A stretch of DNA of 55,453 nucleotides from IMG/VR virus record IMGVR_UViG_3300023171_000001, positions 1 through 55,453 of that record; one strand, 5' to 3'. The translations under genes and the position numbers were made by a program. Every line of letters starts with the position of its first letter. Position 1 is the first letter of the stretch. This DNA comes from a virus. Of the stretch, positions 6,262 to 55,453 are shown in pieces. The notes below the pieces were generated by a model. That model did no database searches. It saw only the letters and a list, made by a program, of their open reading frames with translations, and was not told the DNA's origin.

Positions 6262-6492
6262 ATGATTTACACCGACAAAACCCATTTAGTAGCCGAAAAT
6301 CTGGACATTCTTCACGACTTTGCAAAGGTCATTGGCCTAAACAGGTGTTGGTTTGAAGGTACCAAGAAAGGACACCCGCATTATGATATTCCACCAGGCA
6401 AAAAGCAGCAAATACTTTCCTCCCCCCTGGTTAAGATTGTATCTAGTAGGGAAGTGTTGGCCATATCGAAAAAAAGCTTGAAAAGTCTTTGA
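6262..6492 (+). CDS. DUF4031-like protein
   Basis: The 76-residue product reads MIYTDKTHLVAENLDILHDF, then AKVIGL, W-F, and HPHYDI. The order 'MIYxD... LHxFAxxIGL... WF... PHYD' is characteristic of DUF4031, a small phage and bacterial protein of unknown function. The ATG at 6262 matches the usual N terminus of the family. It is the last gene of this transcription block; a new promoter begins at its 3' end. Confidence 0.8.
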   Translation: MIYTDKTHLVAENLDILHDFAKVIGLNRCWFEGTKKGHPHYDIPPGKKQQILSSPLVKIVSSREVLAISKKSLKSL

Positions 6493-6519
6493 ATGTAAAT
6501 ATAATTTGACTTACATTTG
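6489..6519 (+). promoter_or_regulatory. Bacteroidota-type promoter with GTAA/TTAC operator
   Basis: The -33 element TTG (6489-6491) is followed after 20 bases by the -7 element TACATTTG (6512-6519), a perfect TAnnTTTG. An inverted repeat GTAAAT-N8-ACTTAC (6495-6514) covers the spacer and the start of the -7 element. It has the same geometry as five other sites in the genome. Promoter and operator feed the gene at 6547. Confidence 0.7.
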
Positions 6520-6546: not shown

Positions 6547-7305
6547 ATGACTATCAACGCAAAAAACAGCTTCAAAGAAGGGTGGATTATGCTGCACCAG
6601 CCTTTCGAGTTTGGCGAACTATCAAAGCCAATTCAAATGAAAACCGTTCTGTATGCCTATTCTGAAAGGCCTTTGTTCGATATAGAATTAACGCCTGAAG
6701 GGCGTGAAATACTTGACCATGCTGCGGAAGTGTTCAATTATGCAAGCCCGTTTAGTGGTGGGGCTGAATTGGTCGGTGGCTATCGTTGGGGGAAATATAT
6801 CGGAGAAGACCAGGACAAGTATGAAGACCGCTTTGTGTCACAGTATGACGAAATAACCAAACAGCATTGTATTGTGGAGGTTCACAAAGGCAATGCCGTA
6901 CAGTGTTTTATTGAAAAACAAACGGCTCGTTTCTATCCGAAAGAATATAGTGTTCTAAGCCGTGAAAGTTTTGAAACTGTACTTAATTCTGATGATTATT
7001 TCTTTATGGTGGAGAATGAAGAAGCCTTCAATTATAAACATATTCAAGATAAGGTTCATTATTTAAAAAGTCGTGGCGTTCCTAAGCACCTGGCAGAACG
7101 CTTTTCAAGTGCTGAAATGAAAGACAATGTTTGGTTTAAACCCAAACCCCCCATTCTTTCGATGTTTGCCCGTGACCATGAAATTTATTTGCCCGACCCT
7201 GATTATACCAAGTATTTTGAAGGGTACGGGATGGAATGCCCTAAATCTTTTTCAGCGTTCTTTGCTGAACATGGTATTGAAGTAGTTGAAGAAATGATTT
7301 TATAA
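6547..7305 (+). CDS. Hypothetical protein, first gene of an operator-controlled block
   Basis: Unrecognised 252-residue soluble protein, mixed alpha/beta, with many aromatic residues (GGYRWGKYIGED) and a proline-rich stretch (WFKPKPPILSMF). It starts 27 bases after a strong promoter. Its leader contains AAACGAAAAAGAA directly before the ATG, a leader shared with five leftward genes. That puts it in the same regulon as the control region although it is 7 kb away on the circle. Confidence 0.75.
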   Translation: MTINAKNSFKEGWIMLHQPFEFGELSKPIQMKTVLYAYSERPLFDIELTPEGREILDHAAEVFNYASPFSGGAELVGGYRWGKYIGEDQDKYEDRFVSQYDEITKQHCIVEVHKGNAVQCFIEKQTARFYPKEYSVLSRESFETVLNSDDYFFMVENEEAFNYKHIQDKVHYLKSRGVPKHLAERFSSAEMKDNVWFKPKPPILSMFARDHEIYLPDPDYTKYFEGYGMECPKSFSAFFAEHGIEVVEEMIL

Positions 7306-7315
7306 CCCTACCACC

Positions 7316-7645
7316 ATGACAACGTTTGAAGAATATAAGATTTATCTACTGGCTAAAAACGATTTCAAAAACAGTACCGAAATAAATAAAGCTATAACAA
7401 AAAAGCTTTTAAAAACTGATGGCGGATTCTGTTATTATTTTTGTCAAAAGCATGGTGTATGCTTTCCTGAATTGCCTATTCTTTTTGATATGTTCGCAAA
7501 ATCTAAAGTTAAGGCAAAGATTTTCGGCTTCTGGTTTAAACCAGGTGATACAAAGGCAAGGTATGAAAAACTACTGATTGCCATTAAAAAATGTGAAAAA
7601 CTTATTAAAAATGAACAATTTTCAAAGACAAGAACCGCACCTTGA
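7316..7645 (+). CDS. 'GFCxYF' family protein, copy 1
   Basis: The 109-residue product has a helical N terminus, then GGFCYYFCQKHGVCFPELP and FGFWFKPGD, and a C-terminal helix. The same core ([GN]GFCxYFxxxH, F-[SP]-E/D-L/V, [FYG]WF) occurs in three proteins of the leftward arm at 45419, 45750 and 46338, so this is one of four dispersed paralogues. Function unknown; invariant Cys, His and Trp suggest a small ligand- or protein-binding domain. Confidence 0.75.
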   Translation: MTTFEEYKIYLLAKNDFKNSTEINKAITKKLLKTDGGFCYYFCQKHGVCFPELPILFDMFAKSKVKAKIFGFWFKPGDTKARYEKLLIAIKKCEKLIKNEQFSKTRTAP

Positions 7646-15029: not shown

Positions 15030-15129
15030 TATCTTTGTGCAAAGACTACTATGCGGTTCATTACTAAATGGCTGTTCTTTTTCGTTTATAGAATGATTAA
15101 AAGCCCCGTTTCCTAAACAGGGCTTTTTT
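15030..15129 (+). ncRNA. Candidate short transcript between terminase and portal
   Basis: TATCTTTG (15030-15037) is a perfect -7 element that ends three bases after the terminase stop codon has passed. About 60 bases later lies a strong terminator. The interval has no open frame of note. A second TATCTTTG-to-terminator unit of nearly the same length is at 43772. No TTG -33 element is visible, so this could simply be the untranslated 3' end of the terminase mRNA. Confidence 0.25.
15101..15129 (+). terminator. Intrinsic terminator after terL
   Basis: AAGCCCCGTTT and AAACAGGGCTT form an 11-base stem with one mismatch around a CCT loop, followed by six T. It may reduce read-through from the terminase genes into portal and head genes. 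Confidence 0.85.
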
Positions 15130-41437: not shown

Positions 41438-41683
41438 TTAATTATTTGCTAACCAGTTGTCTATGTCCGTTTTTTTAAATTGAAGGTTGCGACCTTTTCG
41501 GGTGTGCGGTATAGTTTTTATATTGTTATAAAAAAACTGTCTTGATCTGCCTTTTGGGTCGTATTCAACTAGCTGGTCAAGTGAAAAAACCGTTTCTTCA
41601 CCTTCAGGAAAAAGCATATTTTCCAGTTCAATTAAGGCGGCACGAATAACGTTGAATCGGTATAATATTCGGCTTTTATTCAT
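41438..41683 (-). CDS. Small HTH (excisionase-like) DNA-binding protein
   Basis: The 81-residue product has FSLDQLVEYDPKGRSRQFFY, then NNIKTIPHTRKGRNLQFKKT and DIDNWLANN, the arrangement of MerR-like winged helices in excisionase/HTH_17 proteins (helix, helix, wing, and a final W-L). It may control transcription or assist the replication initiator encoded 4 bases downstream. The ATG at 41683 overlaps the exonuclease gene by 8 bases; an upstream ATG at 41764 is unlikely. Confidence 0.75.
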   Translation of the reverse strand: MNKSRILYRFNVIRAALIELENMLFPEGEETVFSLDQLVEYDPKGRSRQFFYNNIKTIPHTRKGRNLQFKKTDIDNWLANN

Positions 41684-42824
41684 TGTCTTCAAATGTTTTA
41701 AATCCATTATACGCAGAACTAGGAAGGTTTGCCGCAATGATGCCCGTTTTTGAAAGGTAATCATACCCAGGCCAATGCTTTAAGTTTTTCGACTTGAAAA
41801 GCTTTAGCATTTTTAATGAATTCTTGTACTTTAAAAGTCCTAGATTCAAGTCTTCAGCACTCCACCAGAAAACAGCTGGCAAGAAAGGGGCATTGCTTTG
41901 TATCATTATTGTAATGACTGTATTGAAGTTACGGCCAGTCATGTCAGACAATACTTTAATGTACATTGATTCGCTAACCTCATAGGCATATTTCGCTGAA
42001 TCATGCCAGAAGTTTTTCAGGCTGTTTGCATTTGAAGTTTTGAAACTTATGACAGCATTTACGCCAATATTTTCTTCAATGTTGAAAGCGTCAGGCCGTA
42101 CTTTAACATCAATCCCCGTTTCCTTGTCTACGGTGTAAAAGGAGGTTTCAAAGGCTGCACCCTTCAGCAACTTAGGGATTAGTCCGTTGCCGTATGCATT
42201 GTAATTTTCTTCAATCAACTGAATCTTTTGATAAGAATCAATATCAAGAAAGGTCTTGCCAGTTATTGCCCGTGCAATATCAACAGCTTGTTTTAGGTCG
42301 GGTAGTTTTTGACTTTCAAACGGAATGCCATAATCCATGCAAATCTTGGTAAATTCCTTGCTTTGACGCTTATTAAAAAAACTTCTGTAAAAGTTGAGTG
42401 CTGCGGTCTGGTCAGCGGTTGTGGTGCGGGAAAAACTGGTTTCTTTAATTACTCTTTTAAACATTTTCGGTTCCAAAAATGCTTGATGGCAAAAGGTGCC
42501 AAATTCAAAATGGGAAGCTGTTTTTTTAGGAAGCATTTCTTCCTTATAAACTTGATAATGACGGGGTGTAATCAACAATTGCTTCAATGAACTTGATGAA
42601 TTTGCTCTGTCAGAAAGATATTCTTCAAAACTATCTTTTCGAGCAATACCAGCACCAGGAACCAGTAAGTCATTCAAGTCAATCTTTGTAGCTTTTCGAC
42701 GCTTATTGATATAGTTTGAAACTAAGTCAGGGGTCGCATACTTGGAAGCATCAAAGGCAAAGGGGTTTAAATCCCCTTCACCTTCAAGCATTTGCGAAAT
42801 ATCGGGCAAATTTTTTAAATCCAT
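41676..42824 (-). CDS. RecE-like PD-(D/E)XK exonuclease
   Basis: The 382-residue product has SLKQLLITPRHYQVYKEEML (about 79-98), FEFGTFCHQAFLEP (His113), AAFETSFY, VKVRPDAFN (Asp245) and VISFKTS (Lys262). This is the order found in the exodeoxyribonuclease VIII/DUF3799 family that resects double-strand ends for annealing. The usual acidic residue two before the Lys is Ser260 here, so activity is not certain. The OB-like partner is encoded immediately upstream with a one-base overlap. Confidence 0.8.
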   Translation of the reverse strand: MDLKNLPDISQMLEGEGDLNPFAFDASKYATPDLVSNYINKRRKATKIDLNDLLVPGAGIARKDSFEEYLSDRANSSSSLKQLLITPRHYQVYKEEMLPKKTASHFEFGTFCHQAFLEPKMFKRVIKETSFSRTTTADQTAALNFYRSFFNKRQSKEFTKICMDYGIPFESQKLPDLKQAVDIARAITGKTFLDIDSYQKIQLIEENYNAYGNGLIPKLLKGAAFETSFYTVDKETGIDVKVRPDAFNIEENIGVNAVISFKTSNANSLKNFWHDSAKYAYEVSESMYIKVLSDMTGRNFNTVITIMIQSNAPFLPAVFWWSAEDLNLGLLKYKNSLKMLKLFKSKNLKHWPGYDYLSKTGIIAANLPSSAYNGFKTFEDNE

Positions 42825-43671: not shown

Positions 43672-43784
43672 TTGATTGTTCTTTTTTCGTTTTGGTGATG
43701 TAAAATAAGTAAATAAAAAGTAATTGTACAAGTAGTTGTTGAATTATTTTTTTTAAACTTCTAAAAATTATTATCTTTGTCAAC

Positions 43785-43862
43785 TTGATTGCCATTGAGT
43801 GGATTTAAAATGCTTGTCTTGCAGAAGTTTAGCCCCGTTTGCGGATTCGGGGCTTTCTTTTT
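43785..43862 (+). ncRNA. Candidate small RNA with rightward terminator
   Basis: A perfect -7 element TATCTTTG (43772-43779) is followed about 50 bases later by a strong terminator, defining a short rightward transcript of about 75-80 bases against two leftward operons. It has no meaningful open frame. No TTG lies at standard distance (nearest 30 bases), which keeps confidence low. It could be an antisense or regulatory RNA. Confidence 0.35.
43831..43862 (+). terminator. Rightward terminator in the gene-poor interval
   Basis: AGCCCCG pairs with CGGGGCT around a ten-base loop, followed by TTTCTTTTT. It points rightward although both neighbouring operons point left, so a rightward transcript should exist. 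Confidence 0.75.
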
Positions 43863-44010
43863 GCCCCAAACTTTAAATACTGTGTTTTTAAGCCCTTTAA
43901 GACGTTATTTTAGTTTCAAATGTCCAAATACTTGTCAGAGCCACGAAAGTGTCTAAAATGCGTGTGTTTGATACCTTATTTTTGATTTCTCAATCATGTT
44001 TGTGTTGCAT

Positions 44011-44043
44011 AATGCTCGTTTTTACAGAAACGGGCATTTTTTG
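44011..44043 (+). terminator. Second rightward terminator in the gene-poor interval
   Basis: AATGCTCGTTT pairs with AAACGGGCATT (one G-T pair) around a six-base loop, followed by a T-run. A second rightward transcript could begin at TATTTTTG near 43977, but no matching -33 element is seen. Confidence 0.75.
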
Positions 44044-44159
44044 TTTTTTCTTTAAAAAAAATATTTCTTTTTTATTTGATTTTTCAAAATATGGGTTTTC
44101 TCACGTGTGTACGTGTACGCCTGCGTTTTTGTGTATAATAAAATATTTTAAAGAAAAAG

Positions 44160-44279
44160 ATTCTCTTTTTCTTTTTCTTCTCTTGGTTAGTTCTCTTAGC
44201 TTCTTCTTCTTTTGGTTACTTTTCTTCTTCTTCGTTTCTCTTATTAACCTTCTCTTTTTTTCTTTGTCTCTTTTAGCTA
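44160..44279 (+). other. Pyrimidine-rich tract
   Basis: About 120 bases are almost wholly C/T on the plus strand, broken only by short GGTTA/GTTAC pieces. Such strand asymmetry favours triplex or unwound DNA and is often found at replication origins or as purine-rich RNA-binding tracts. Its minus-strand translation would be a run of Lys/Arg/Glu, which I regard as fortuitous. Confidence 0.6.
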
Positions 44280-44346
44280 TAAAAAACATGAAAAATTTGA
44301 CTAAAAAACCAGCTTCAAGGCCTGTCAAAAACGTAGCAGCTTGAAA

Positions 44347-45418: not shown

Positions 45419-45763
45419 TTATGAAGAAACTGGAATTACTACAGGAAGGGTTTTTGCATACTCCCGTTTTATCCTGGCATCTATCAAACTGATTGCCATT
45501 GTTAATCTTTGTCTTCTTTCTACTAATTCGCCTTCTTTGAACCAGAAACCAGTTGAGTTTTCAGCGTTGTCTTCAAATAAAAACATTTCATAAAGTGTTA
45601 CCAGATCAGAAAAATTTACCCCTTGCCTGGCAGCGAAGTACCAACAAAAACCAAAGCCTGTCTGTAAAGGGGTGAAATAGTGTTTTGTATAGTCCCTTTC
45701 GATTGCTGCATTGTAATCTTGCAAAGCCGATACGTAATGCATCTTTTCTTCAATTAGTGTCAT
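45419..45763 (-). CDS. 'GFCxYF' family protein, copy 2
   Basis: The 114-residue product has an N-terminal helix (EEKMHYVSALQDYNAAIERD), TGFGFCWYFAARQGVNFSDL, TLYEMFL and STGFWFKEGELVERRQRL. It shares the core with the neighbours at 45750 and 46338 and with 7316. The ATG at 45763 overlaps the upstream gene by 14 bases. Confidence 0.75.
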   Translation of the reverse strand: MTLIEEKMHYVSALQDYNAAIERDYTKHYFTPLQTGFGFCWYFAARQGVNFSDLVTLYEMFLFEDNAENSTGFWFKEGELVERRQRLTMAISLIDARIKREYAKTLPVVIPVSS

Positions 45764-46043
45764 TTTTGATTTCTTCTTTAAGTTGTACAATTGCCCGTCT
45801 TAATCTTGTTATCCTCCCAGATGTTAAACTAGGACTGAACCAGAAAATGTATTTCGTTTCAGTACTGTACATGAAATACAATGTTTTTAGTTCGCTGAAC
45901 ATTACCCCGTGCTTGCTAAAGAAATACCAGCAAAACCCGTTATCAATTCGGGCATTTTCCTTTTCAGTTGGTGACATCTTTCGGACAGCTTTGTAATCTT
46001 TCAAAGCAAGCTTATAATATTCAAGTTCTTCCAGCTTTGTCAT
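45750..46043 (-). CDS. 'GFCxYF' family protein, copy 3
   Basis: The 97-residue product has ELEYYKLALKDYKAVRKMSP, NGFCWYFFSKHGVMFSELKT and YIFWFSPS, then R-x-T-R-L-R-R-A-I. It is the most compact family member and probably close to the minimal domain. It overlaps the genes on both sides by 4-14 bases. Confidence 0.75.
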   Translation of the reverse strand: MTKLEELEYYKLALKDYKAVRKMSPTEKENARIDNGFCWYFFSKHGVMFSELKTLYFMYSTETKYIFWFSPSLTSGRITRLRRAIVQLKEEIKNDTN

Positions 46044-46351
46044 TTTGAGTATTTCGCTTTTTGAATGTTAAACTTTTCTATGTCAGTACTTCCGAAAATC
46101 AACCGACCAGCGGCACGTACATTGCAATACAAGAAAATGCCACCAGCGTAAACAGCTACCAGTGTAAATTCGTTATACCTCCAAGATTTGAATTCTAAGG
46201 CCTCCAATGATCTATTGTACTGGTCTTCTGTTATCTGACAATGAATGTCTTCAATAATGCCAGCTTTACGCAAAAACTGCAACACTGGCGTAGAAGTCTT
46301 AACATGATCTAAGGCCTCTATTTTTTCGGATTTGGTTTTAAGAATTTCCAT
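46040..46351 (-). CDS. Hypothetical protein within the GFCxYF cluster
   Basis: Unrecognised 103-residue protein with an N-terminal helix (KIEALDHVKTSTPVLQFLRK) and beta segments (YNEFTLVAVYAGGIFLYCNV). It is not a family member itself but sits between copies 3 and 4, coupled to both (4- and 14-base overlaps). Confidence 0.68.
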   Translation of the reverse strand: MEILKTKSEKIEALDHVKTSTPVLQFLRKAGIIEDIHCQITEDQYNRSLEALEFKSWRYNEFTLVAVYAGGIFLYCNVRAAGRLIFGSTDIEKFNIQKAKYSK

Positions 46352-46658
46352 TTTGCTTTTGTAGTTTTTTGATTTTCCTTTCTACGATTTTCTTTGAAGC
46401 TAATAATTGGTTGCATCTTGGAAGGTATTGGCCTTTCTCAAACCAATAGGCACCTTTTGCTTCTTTCGTGTACCTTTTCCACAAAGTTGTAACTTCCGAA
46501 AAGTCAAGCTTGTGCCGAATCCTGAAATACAAGCAAAATCCGCTTTGTGTAGCTATTAGAATGTTTGTGTCGGCCATTCCGTTCCAGGCCTTTAAATAGT
46601 CTTCTATTGCCAGGTTGTAGAAGATTAATTCTGTTTCTAATGTCATTCGTTTTGTCAT
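46338..46658 (-). CDS. 'GFCxYF' family protein, copy 4
   Basis: The 106-residue product has LIFYNLAIEDYLKAWNGM, SGFCLYFRIRHKLDFSEVTT and AYWFEKGQYLPRCNQLLA. It is the first gene of the cluster and has the shared AAACGAAAAAGGAAATG leader, though its upstream region lacks a full GTAA/TTAC operator. Start could be at 46658 or four residues later. Confidence 0.72.
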   Translation of the reverse strand: MTKRMTLETELIFYNLAIEDYLKAWNGMADTNILIATQSGFCLYFRIRHKLDFSEVTTLWKRYTKEAKGAYWFEKGQYLPRCNQLLASKKIVERKIKKLQKQNGNS

Positions 46659-46814: not shown

Positions 46815-47771
46815 TTATATTGCCCCGCAGCCTTCACCAAATGCACCAGGTGGCAATTGCCACACGTCGGTAAATATCGGTAAATAGTAAATGGTTGAAG
46901 TAGCCGCAGCGATTAATTCAGGTGTTAAGAATTGATAAGGCACACCTTTAGATATTAATTCAGAAAGCGATTCTGTACGCTTCATAGTTACGCCAAAACC
47001 TTTTTCGTAATTGATAAGTATTTCAGCTTTTGAAGGTGATATTGCGGCAGCTGTAGCAAACTGATCTTTGTTACCAAAAATACAGAATTTGCAGCTGCAA
47101 CGACTGAAGCCCAGATAATAACAAGGGTGTACTAAGATTTTCCAACGTTCAATAATTGCCCAAACTTCACCTTCCAACCAGTCACGTACAGGACGGCAAC
47201 GGTATACTTCACGATTCTTGCCAAATGTTCTATCTGGTTCAAATGTTTTGTACTTCGCACGTGCAGGACTTTCTTCACCACGTTCGCCAGATAACACCAA
47301 AGTTCTGATTCCTTTGAATCGTTCCTGGTTAACAATAGCAGCGGCACACGGGTCAATTTTGAGGTATGGCGAACAATATCTGGTCTTTAGGTCAGGCGAT
47401 ATTTGCGGGAACTTCCTTCTGGTAGATAGTTTTCCCCTGGTACCTCCGATTTGCATACGGCCTTCAGGCGTTTCAAATACTGTAGGGGCTGTTAGGCTGT
47501 TTTCTCTCAACATTTCACGCTCAAACCCGCCAACCTTCCAAGAAAAATAAATGGGAACGCCAAAAGCTTCTGCAAATTTTCTGCAATAGTCTTCTGTGCA
47601 TTCCCAGTCAAATAATATTTTACCTTCACCGTCAACTAAATGGTGCCACAACTCTATTTTAGATTTGTCAACGCCATTTTCTAACAGCCATAAAAAAGAA
47701 GCAATTGAATCTTTGCCAGCACTAAAAGTAACAAGATATTTGTCAAAGGAATTTAGTTCTAACAGGTTCAT
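46815..47771 (-). CDS. PAPS-reductase-family ATP pyrophosphatase
   Basis: The 318-residue protein has the PP-loop VTFSAGKDSIASFLWLLE (residues 14-31), ELWHHLVDG, LVLSGERGEESPARAKY and a Cys cluster CSCKFCIFG (about 224-232). These are features of the PAPS reductase/adenine nucleotide alpha-hydrolase family, which includes DndC-type DNA-sulfur and other adenylating enzymes. In phages such genes are widespread but their substrate is unknown; a DNA or tRNA thio-modification role is possible, yet no DndB/D/E partners are present. The start at 47771 follows the AAACGAAGAAGAAA leader and a strong operator-promoter. Confidence 0.82.
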   Translation of the reverse strand: MNLLELNSFDKYLVTFSAGKDSIASFLWLLENGVDKSKIELWHHLVDGEGKILFDWECTEDYCRKFAEAFGVPIYFSWKVGGFEREMLRENSLTAPTVFETPEGRMQIGGTRGKLSTRRKFPQISPDLKTRYCSPYLKIDPCAAAIVNQERFKGIRTLVLSGERGEESPARAKYKTFEPDRTFGKNREVYRCRPVRDWLEGEVWAIIERWKILVHPCYYLGFSRCSCKFCIFGNKDQFATAAAISPSKAEILINYEKGFGVTMKRTESLSELISKGVPYQFLTPELIAAATSTIYYLPIFTDVWQLPPGAFGEGCGAI

Positions 47772-47798
47772 TTTCTTCTTCGTTTCGTAATAATGAAA

Positions 47799-47829
47799 CA
47801 AAGTAAGTCAAAAAGGCATTACAAAACAA
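47799..47829 (-). promoter_or_regulatory. Leftward promoter with GTAA/TTAC operator
   Basis: On the minus strand TTG (47829-47827), 20 bases, then TTACTTTG (47806-47799). The inverted repeat GTAAGT-N8-CATTAC (plus-strand 47803-47822) overlaps the -7 element. Drives the PAPS-reductase-family gene, whose start is 28 bases further on. Confidence 0.7.
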
Positions 47830-51833: not shown

Positions 51834-51864
51834 GTTGTTCTTTTTTCGTTTTGTAATAATGAAA

Positions 51865-51895
51865 CAAAGTAAGTCAAAAAAGAATTACAAGTCAA
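51865..51895 (-). promoter_or_regulatory. Leftward promoter with GTAA/TTAC operator
   Basis: On the minus strand TTG (51895-51893), 20 bases, then TTACTTTG (51872-51865). The inverted repeat GTAAGT-N8-AATTAC (plus-strand 51869-51888) overlaps the -7 element, with the same spacer CAAAAAAG as the site at 54464. It should drive the small gene at 51833 and the large repeat proteins. Confidence 0.7.
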
Positions 51896-51904
51896 GCTTT
51901 TTTG

Positions 51905-51936
51905 TAAAAAAAATAACCAGGTGGCGGCCTGGTTAT
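51905..51936 (-). terminator. Leftward intrinsic terminator
   Basis: ATAACCAGG and CCTGGTTAT form a nine-base perfect stem around TGGCGG; a run of eight T follows on the minus strand. It ends the transcript that carries the caspase-like gene and lies directly upstream of the next promoter. Confidence 0.88.
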
Positions 51937-51948
51937 CTGCGAAGCTTG

Positions 51949-54088: not shown

Positions 54089-54107
54089 AAAAAGGGGCTT
54101 TCACCCC
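54089..54107 (-). terminator. Weak leftward terminator after the first leftward gene
   Basis: On the minus strand GGGG and CCCC form a short stem around six bases, followed by five T. It lies 6 bases beyond the stop of the 54113 gene. With only four base pairs it would terminate partially. Confidence 0.5.
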
Positions 54108-54376: not shown

Positions 54377-54402
54377 GTTCTTGTTTCGTTTAAATGATGA
54401 TA

Positions 54403-54433
54403 CAAAGTAAGTCAATTAATACTTACAAGTCAA
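54403..54433 (-). promoter_or_regulatory. Leftward control promoter with perfect GTAAGT/ACTTAC operator
   Basis: On the minus strand TTG (54433-54431), 20 bases, then TTACTTTG (54410-54403). The operator GTAAGT-N8-ACTTAC (54407-54426) is the only perfect copy, which makes it the likely high-affinity site. It controls the leftward arm from 54376. Confidence 0.75.
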
Positions 54434-54463
54434 GGAATATTTGATTTATTTTTCAAAATAAAT

Positions 54464-54483
54464 GTAATTCAAAAAAGTATTAC
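54464..54483. promoter_or_regulatory. Middle GTAA/TTAC operator of the control region
   Basis: GTAATT-CAAAAAAG-TATTAC has the same half-sites and 8-base spacer as the promoter-linked sites but no obvious promoter of its own. It starts 57 bases from the operator at 54407 and 34 from the one at 54498, giving a three-site array between divergent promoters. Confidence 0.6.
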
Positions 54484-54490
54484 ATTTTAC

Positions 54491-54522
54491 TTGTTTTGTA
54501 AGTCTGTTTTTGTTTACATTTG
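54491..54522 (+). promoter_or_regulatory. Rightward control promoter with GTAA/TTAC operator
   Basis: TTG (54491-54493), 21 bases, then TACATTTG (54515-54522), a perfect TAnnTTTG. Operator GTAAGT-N8-GTTTAC (54498-54517) overlaps the spacer and -7 element. It drives the XRE regulator gene and, across the contig junction, the early rightward arm; binding of the product here would be autoregulation. Confidence 0.72.
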
Positions 54523-54562: not shown

Positions 54563-54811
54563 ATGGAAAAAACAATTCCTATGCCGCCAAATGGGGCATA
54601 TCTTAATGAATTCGCTTCAGCTATTCGTGCTGAAGAAGAACTTTCACAAGCAGAAATGGCCAGGAAGTTAGGATTGAGTGCAAGACAAACCTATTACAAT
54701 ATTGAAACAGGACGCAAAGCAATGGGTTTGAACTTCCTGTCTAAAATTTGCAAAACGTTTGGGTATTCGATTTCTATCACGATTAAAAAAGACGAAAATG
54801 AAGGCAGCTAA
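54563..54811 (+). CDS. XRE-family HTH transcriptional regulator
   Basis: The 82-residue product has a five-helix HTH domain at about residues 13-72: EFASAIRAEEELSQAEMARK, LGLSARQTYYNIETGRKAMG and LNFLSKICKTFGYSISI. The Q-A-E-M-A-R and Y-Y-N-I-E-T-G-R positions are those of lambda-repressor-type recognition. It is small and has no extra domain, so it is more Cro-like than a LexA-type repressor. It lies 40 bases behind an operator-covered promoter. It is the obvious candidate to bind the six GTAA/TTAC sites (inference). Confidence 0.88.
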   Translation: MEKTIPMPPNGAYLNEFASAIRAEEELSQAEMARKLGLSARQTYYNIETGRKAMGLNFLSKICKTFGYSISITIKKDENEGS

Positions 54812-55453
54812 AGAACAATTCACTGTAGAATTCCAGGGTCGGCACATAAATTTCAATTCAGTTGGAATTGCATCTTCTTTGTGTAGTGAAATCTTTAAAG
54901 AAGGTATACCTGAAGACTTTGCTAAAATATTTTCTAGTCATTTGAATGGTGCTTATAAAGATCAAAATACTTTTGATTTTTCAATTGCAAAATTTAGTCT
55001 TTCAGAAAATTCAGAAGACAAAAAGGCTATTTTCTTGAAATTTAATATTTATTTCAAAGGAAAACCTTTTATGACTAGGCATATTGAAATGACTGAAGAA
55101 ATGGTTTTGCAACTTTTGGACGCTTTCAGGATTTGTTCCCAAAATTACCAGGGTGAAAACTTTACGGCTTTTATGGTTGGTGTTTATATGGCTGGCCAGG
55201 CTGAACAACTTAAATTTGTTTGTTTGCTAATGACAAAGCTTTGTGAGGTTTGGAACGCTGGAATAGAAGCTTCAGAAGTTGGCATGACTTGCATTTGTAC
55301 TTCTTTCAAAATGGAATTAAAGAAGCCGCACGAATTCAATTATTCTTTCAAACTTAAACTTGAAGGTTTTGAAAATCCTTTTGAATATGGTTTTAAACTT
55401 CAGTTTGCCGAAATGCCGCATTTTCATTATGTCACTAAGTTCCAGCAACTAAT
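54798..55453 (+). CDS. Hypothetical protein, N-terminal part of the junction-spanning gene
   Basis: Begins with ATG at 54798 inside the end of the regulator gene (14-base overlap) and runs off the window end; it continues at 1-224 after circularisation (total 250 residues). The sequence shows two similar beta-rich halves: N-terminal FTVEFQGRHINFNSVGIASS and C-terminal FSFKLKLEGFENP-like stretch, joined by a helical part (MTEEMVLQLLDAFRICSQNY; MAGQAEQLKFVCLLMTKLCE). No known family. Confidence 0.8.
   Translation, partial: MKAAKEQFTVEFQGRHINFNSVGIASSLCSEIFKEGIPEDFAKIFSSHLNGAYKDQNTFDFSIAKFSLSENSEDKKAIFLKFNIYFKGKPFMTRHIEMTEEMVLQLLDAFRICSQNYQGENFTAFMVGVYMAGQAEQLKFVCLLMTKLCEVWNAGIEASEVGMTCICTSFKMELKKPHEFNYSFKLKLEGFENPFEYGFKLQFAEMPHFHYVTKFQQL
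55327..55453. repeat. Terminal direct repeat, right copy (circular-contig overlap)
   Basis: Identical to 1-127. It lies inside the 54798 gene, whose frame stays open across the join. Confidence 0.95.

Follow-up and report, generated by a model that had tools for sequence, protein, structure and literature searches.

A dispersed 20-bp dyad as the candidate operator of a single small XRE protein in a siphophage-like viral genome

The viral genome considered here carries six intergenic copies of a 20-bp inverted repeat (GTAA-N12-TTAC), five of which lie in a constant register within predicted early promoters, while three form an array beside the gene of a small XRE protein. It seems that the six sites are the operators of one phage repressor, most likely this 82-residue XRE protein, which would act in a Cro-like, timed shut-off of early transcription; we would put the probability of this reading at roughly 0.6.

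The window analysed is the whole virus record IMGVR_UViG_3300023171_000001 (55,453 bases). End comparison showed that the 127 bases at 1-127 are identical to those at 55327-55453, so that joining the ends gives a circular genome of 55,326 bp; such a terminal identity is typical of an assembly overlap from a circular or circularly permuted genome. Noncoding DNA makes up 5.2% of the genome. The rightward genes extend from 54563 across the closing point as far as 37557, the leftward ones from 54376 to 37607. The preliminary description had placed the sites in "both arms", of which the bidirectional layout holds, whereas the arms themselves become two divergent transcripts of one circle. Judging by sequence, the virus resembles those of Bacteroidota bacteria, with structural genes like those of Bacteroidota siphophages (portal identity 39% versus Riemerella phage PJN03, and likewise versus Porphyromonas phage005; capsid identity 43% versus PJN03). 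Searches of the genome found neither a tyrosine nor a serine integrase, in agreement with the preliminary description, nor a ParA-type ATPase, an Rfam match or a tRNA. A 615-base noncoding, low-complexity T/C-rich stretch within the leftward arm (43732-44346) is a possible replication origin. Small proteins encoded at 45419-45790, 45750-46043 and 46338-46658 (minus strand) and at 7316-7645 (plus strand) have the pattern GFCwYF..gv.FseL..L...f in common and look like paralogues on both arms.

Each of the six sites was found where the preliminary description had placed it, wholly between genes. Candidate operator 1 (54407-54426, GTAAGTCAATTAATACTTAC), a perfect 6+6 dyad, covers the first promoter of the leftward direction and is the only one with both full hexamers (GTAAGT-N8-ACTTAC). 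Candidate operator 2 (54464-54483, GTAATTCAAAAAAGTATTAC) forms the middle of the array, and candidate operator 3 (54498-54517, GTAAGTCTGTTTTTGTTTAC) covers the promoter from which the XRE gene would be transcribed rightward. Candidate operators 4 (51869-51888, GTAAGTCAAAAAAGAATTAC), 5 (47803-47822, GTAAGTCAAAAAGGCATTAC) and 6 (6495-6514, GTAAATATAATTTGACTTAC) complete the set, and when the sites are oriented with their promoters four of the six read GTAAnnnnnnnTTGACTTAC. The array shows no helical phasing, its centres being 57 and 34 bp apart (5.4 and 3.2 turns).

In the window, GTAA-N12-TTAC has 9 exact matches, compared to 1.07 expected from dinucleotide shuffles (0 of 100 shuffles reached 9), and 12 gives the top count among spacers of 0-30 for GTAA/TTAC; the 3 further matches (2981, 30697 and 51513) lie wholly within ORFs. 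When dyads were ranked over 256 half-sites and 21 spacers, with 200 Markov simulations, this dyad came first genome-wide (-log10 P 5.85 versus 5.71 for the best of the 200 simulations) and did so by a much wider margin in noncoding DNA (6 copies versus 0.12 expected, with a score of 8.36 versus a simulated maximum of 5.27). The genome search with a six-site matrix, proposed earlier as a check, likewise singles out these sites, the weakest scoring 21.0 and the next position in the genome 13.6, and in a leave-one-out version the withheld site ranks 1st or 6th genome-wide, with only training sites ahead. Two further repeats were considered and rejected: GTAA-N18-TTAC (7 copies), which shows no enrichment in noncoding DNA, and the direct repeat TTGACTT-N10-TTGACTT, which is present at two leftward promoters and absent from the others.

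Five of the sites occupy exactly positions -29 to -10 of a predicted promoter with a leader of 21-36 nt, and the closing TTAC supplies the TA of the -7 box. On the minus strand, the predicted early promoter at 54402-54433 (TTG-N21-TACTTTGT, start ~54397) would drive 54376 and the genes that follow, that of the second leftward unit lies at 51864-51895 (TTG-N21-TACTTTGT, start ~51859), and a third (47798-47829, TTG-N21-TACTTTGT, start ~47793) precedes a PAPS-reductase-like gene. The second lies just past an intrinsic-terminator-like hairpin with a T run (51911-51938, minus strand) between the first and second leftward units; a terminator-like hairpin at 54094-54107 (minus strand) also separates leftward units. 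On the plus strand, predicted promoters are found at 54491-54522 (TTG-N21-TACATTTG, start ~54527) and, before gene 6547-7305, at 6489-6519 (TTG-N20-TACATTTG, start ~6524). The sites at 54407 and 54498 thus cover oppositely directed predicted promoters, and the array lies between divergent promoters beside the XRE gene, as first described. The 54464 site between them is a perfect dyad without a full promoter, with degenerate -7 boxes of one mismatch each on both strands (TACATTTT on the plus, TACATTTA on the minus strand). A weak candidate for a fourth leftward cassette (43675-43730, minus strand) has the same leader (AAACGAAAAAAGAACAA) and a degenerate dyad. The PAPS-reductase-like protein behind candidate operator 5 (46815-47771, minus strand) has remote similarity to DndC, SspD and BrxP, and proteins of Pseudoalteromonas phage KB12-38 and a faecal phage contig match it at 45-59% identity.

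All five promoters had initially been taken to be of a TTG/TAnnTTTG type. The register stands for each of them, whereas the TAnnTTTG box stands at 54498 and 6495 only, where the sigma-A -7 box of Bacteroidota, TAHHTTTG (PMC6847099), occurs at 54515 and 6512 (TACATTTG). The three leftward boxes (TACTTTGT) are one base short of TAnnTTTG and have no sigma-A match; by sequence they fit an alternative type, being exact instances of TAnnTTGY, the SM5 motif of Flavobacterium that has been assigned to a probable alternative sigma factor (PMC9723704). The leftward cassettes also have their -33, -7 and leader sequences in common, while the rightward sites show little similarity beyond the dyad. An ACGAAA..AAGAA stretch before the ATG is common to the leaders and is also found at a possible promoter near 43700. 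Among 356 intergenic -7 boxes from 21 related phages, only 2 have GTAA at -29, which shows that the dyad is not a general promoter part. It is also missing from four further intergenic TAnnTTTG boxes in the present genome (12796, 15030, 43772 and 43977), and taken together these findings indicate that only selected promoters carry it. On the plus strand, units at 43772-43857, 43977-44040 and 15030-15128 combine a perfect -7 box (TATCTTTG or TATTTTTG), without an operator, with a terminator-like hairpin ~40-100 bases further on and contain no ORF; they are possible phage small RNAs, with no Rfam match.

The candidate regulator (P0001, 82 aa) is encoded at 54563-54811 on the plus strand, where its gene opens the rightward transcript. 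It is the sole HTH_3 protein of the genome (PF01381, 37.9 bits versus a cut-off of 23) and its gene adjoins three of the sites. One weak HTH_17 match occurs at 41438-41764, and the ORFs, most of which have no assigned function, might conceal a further regulator. A single-sequence structural model of the protein has moderate confidence (pLDDT 70.5; below 62 at the C-terminus of the monomer, where no beta strand was assigned, such as the one that pairs in the HipB dimer), and at this confidence the solved structures closest to it in fold are HipB proteins. HipB(Lp) of Legionella is also its second-best PDB sequence match, and couple_hipB is the best NCBIfam model, though below the cut-off (28.4 of 71.65 bits), as is HipB PRK09726 (17.9 of 79 bits). 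At the C-terminus, the 82-residue protein carries neither an inducible nor a cleavage domain.

By analogy, the protein probably reads DNA in the manner of HipB, a link that goes beyond the preliminary description. The operators of HipB, TATCC-N8-GGATA (PMC3376134, PMC3920265), have the same N8 dyad geometry as GTAAGT-N8-ACTTAC, with other half-site letters and with TA equidistant from the symmetry centre in both. In E. coli hipBA, a small XRE protein regulates its own operon through several dyads with an 8-base centre, as is proposed here for the phage protein. Unlike hipBA, the phage has no HipA toxin gene, its protein does not reach the family cut-offs, and its sites are dispersed over the genome inside Bacteroidota promoters. 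A HipBA-type toxin-antitoxin pair was rejected, since HipA (PF07804) is absent from the genome in a search that detected its positive controls, and the 82-residue protein is therefore not placed in a toxin-antitoxin family; the 249-residue protein encoded downstream has no Pfam match.

Following these observations, a dimer of the XRE protein would bind the 20-bp dyad and keep RNA polymerase off five early promoters, including its own, since a protein bound to a dyad that fills -29 to -10 should exclude the polymerase. Because the XRE gene comes first in the rightward transcript and has an operator-covered promoter, such binding should lead to self-repression together with repression of the leftward and rightward early transcripts. 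Early genes would then be switched on in both directions and shut off as the XRE protein accumulates, i.e. a Cro-like role without CI. The preliminary description had seen in the sites a single-regulator regulon that controls early functions in both directions, a reading to which the statistics, the constant register and the presence of just one HTH_3 gene lend good support. Its further suggestion of a decision switch lacks such support: the genome has a single repressor-like gene, whose own promoter is operator-covered, and a regulator opposing it was not found. By itself, negative autoregulation leads to shut-off or homeostasis and not to a two-state decision.

The same arrangement could also belong to a true immunity repressor, with the XRE protein silencing a circular, non-integrated prophage and lytic growth requiring its inactivation. 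The circular record, the lack of a recognisable integrase, and the position of all strong promoter candidates of both early directions under candidate operators are consistent with this, and P1 C1 offers a precedent of an autonomous prophage with dispersed operators (PMC8546580). Identical ends are, however, also obtained from the circularly permuted DNA of a virulent phage, and the genome search gave no ParA-type ATPase; nor was an operator-free promoter recognised that could keep the repressor on, and a protein of 82 residues with no inducible or cleavage domain fits poorly. We therefore consider a prophage state improbable, if still the strongest of the competing explanations.

A host-encoded regulator might instead read the sites and so couple early transcription to the state of the host, with the XRE gene only a neighbour, but this appears less probable again. 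One of the two -7 types resembles an alternative-sigma box, which makes such coupling plausible, but the array immediately adjoins the XRE gene, the matches from a pattern search of IMG/VR were all isolated ones, and the 41 portal relatives, some of them probably of similar hosts, have 0-5 matches each and no repeated sites. The sites might also involve no repressor at all, being copies of a phage-specific promoter module or the sites of a MerR-like activator inside the long spacer, with incidental symmetry. MerR-type regulators bind dyads within the promoter spacer. The likeness of the leftward cassettes in -33, -7 and leader is what recent copies would show; the rightward sites, however, have only weak similarity outside the dyad, a single dyad is combined with two -7 types and with either orientation and, at 54464, stands apart from any full box, and there is no MerR family match above the cut-off, all of which makes this the least likely explanation.

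The proposed repression of early transcription by the XRE protein may be compared with that in lambda. Like Cro, the candidate repressor is small and encoded by the first rightward early gene, with predicted operators over divergent early promoters. Unlike CI/Cro, no CI partner was found and there is a single HTH_3 protein instead of two opposing repressors, and unlike OR/OL the sites are 20 bp long and single at the distant promoters, while the three-site array lies off one helical face. The dispersal of the sites resembles that of P1 C1, SPbeta MrpR (SPBRE) and the stoperators of mycobacteriophage L5, whose intergenic motifs are scattered and mostly found at promoters (PMC8546580, PMC10516654, PMC5712189); here too, one motif is repeated at several intergenic promoters, above chance. 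In P1 and L5 the sites lack symmetry and number 22 and about 24, respectively, compared to six symmetric ones here, and MrpR has a recombinase fold, compared to a HipB-like XRE protein. As far as the sequences allow, it is credible that the six sites form a phage repressor regulon with dispersed operators, and so is the candidate repressor.

Searches of IMG/VR with the XRE protein, the 172-residue leftward protein and the portal sequence gave no close relatives, and the composite operator-promoter pattern was met there in 16 contigs, as isolated matches without a common promoter context. Among 84,980 genomes, the XRE protein had one remote match, in a Ruminococcaceae genome that lacks the motif, and none of the 41 portal relatives has the XRE protein. 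When the same dyad test was applied to 21 related phages, a different palindrome, GTATCA-N3-TGATAC (with C/T and A/G variants), was found in 4-10 copies per genome in nine of them (G007, G010, G020, G021, G018, G030, G031, G035 and G041) and in 0-2 copies in the other twelve, with dyad scores up to 14.2 versus a simulated maximum near 5. Its copies are mostly intergenic and near start codons, many close to TAnnTTTG boxes, and directly precede a portal-length gene in four genomes. A LuxR-type HTH gene is present in 9 of 9 carriers and also in three relatives without the repeated palindrome. An IMG/VR scan for this palindrome gave matches too numerous to interpret, its core being short. As in the phage studied here, a repeated palindrome thus stands at many promoters of one genome; it differs in being 15 bp long, of another sequence, and mostly situated after the promoter and its -7 box, ahead of the start codon. 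Its presence in nine relatives indicates that dispersed operators are a repeated feature of this phage group, differing in sequence and position.

A search of the literature on transcription control in Bacteroidota phages found little, and the present genome provides a complete predicted regulon map (six sites, five promoters and one candidate repressor), as well as a candidate repressor-promoter set for Bacteroidota genetics. One operator sequence stands in the same register over two box types, sigma-A (rightward) and TAnnTTGY (leftward). A toxin-free HipB-like protein may thus balance two early programmes of different host sigma factors, with promoter-fused dispersed operators common throughout the group, although we regard this wider picture as speculative and rather doubtful. 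The different 15-bp palindrome present at many promoters in 9 of the 21 relatives might suggest that dispersed operators are a common mode of control in this siphophage group. The six-site set is in itself a clean example of an ordinary viral control circuit, and the HipB link, if true, would mean that a HipB-type DNA reader, freed of its toxin, acts as an early regulator of a phage.
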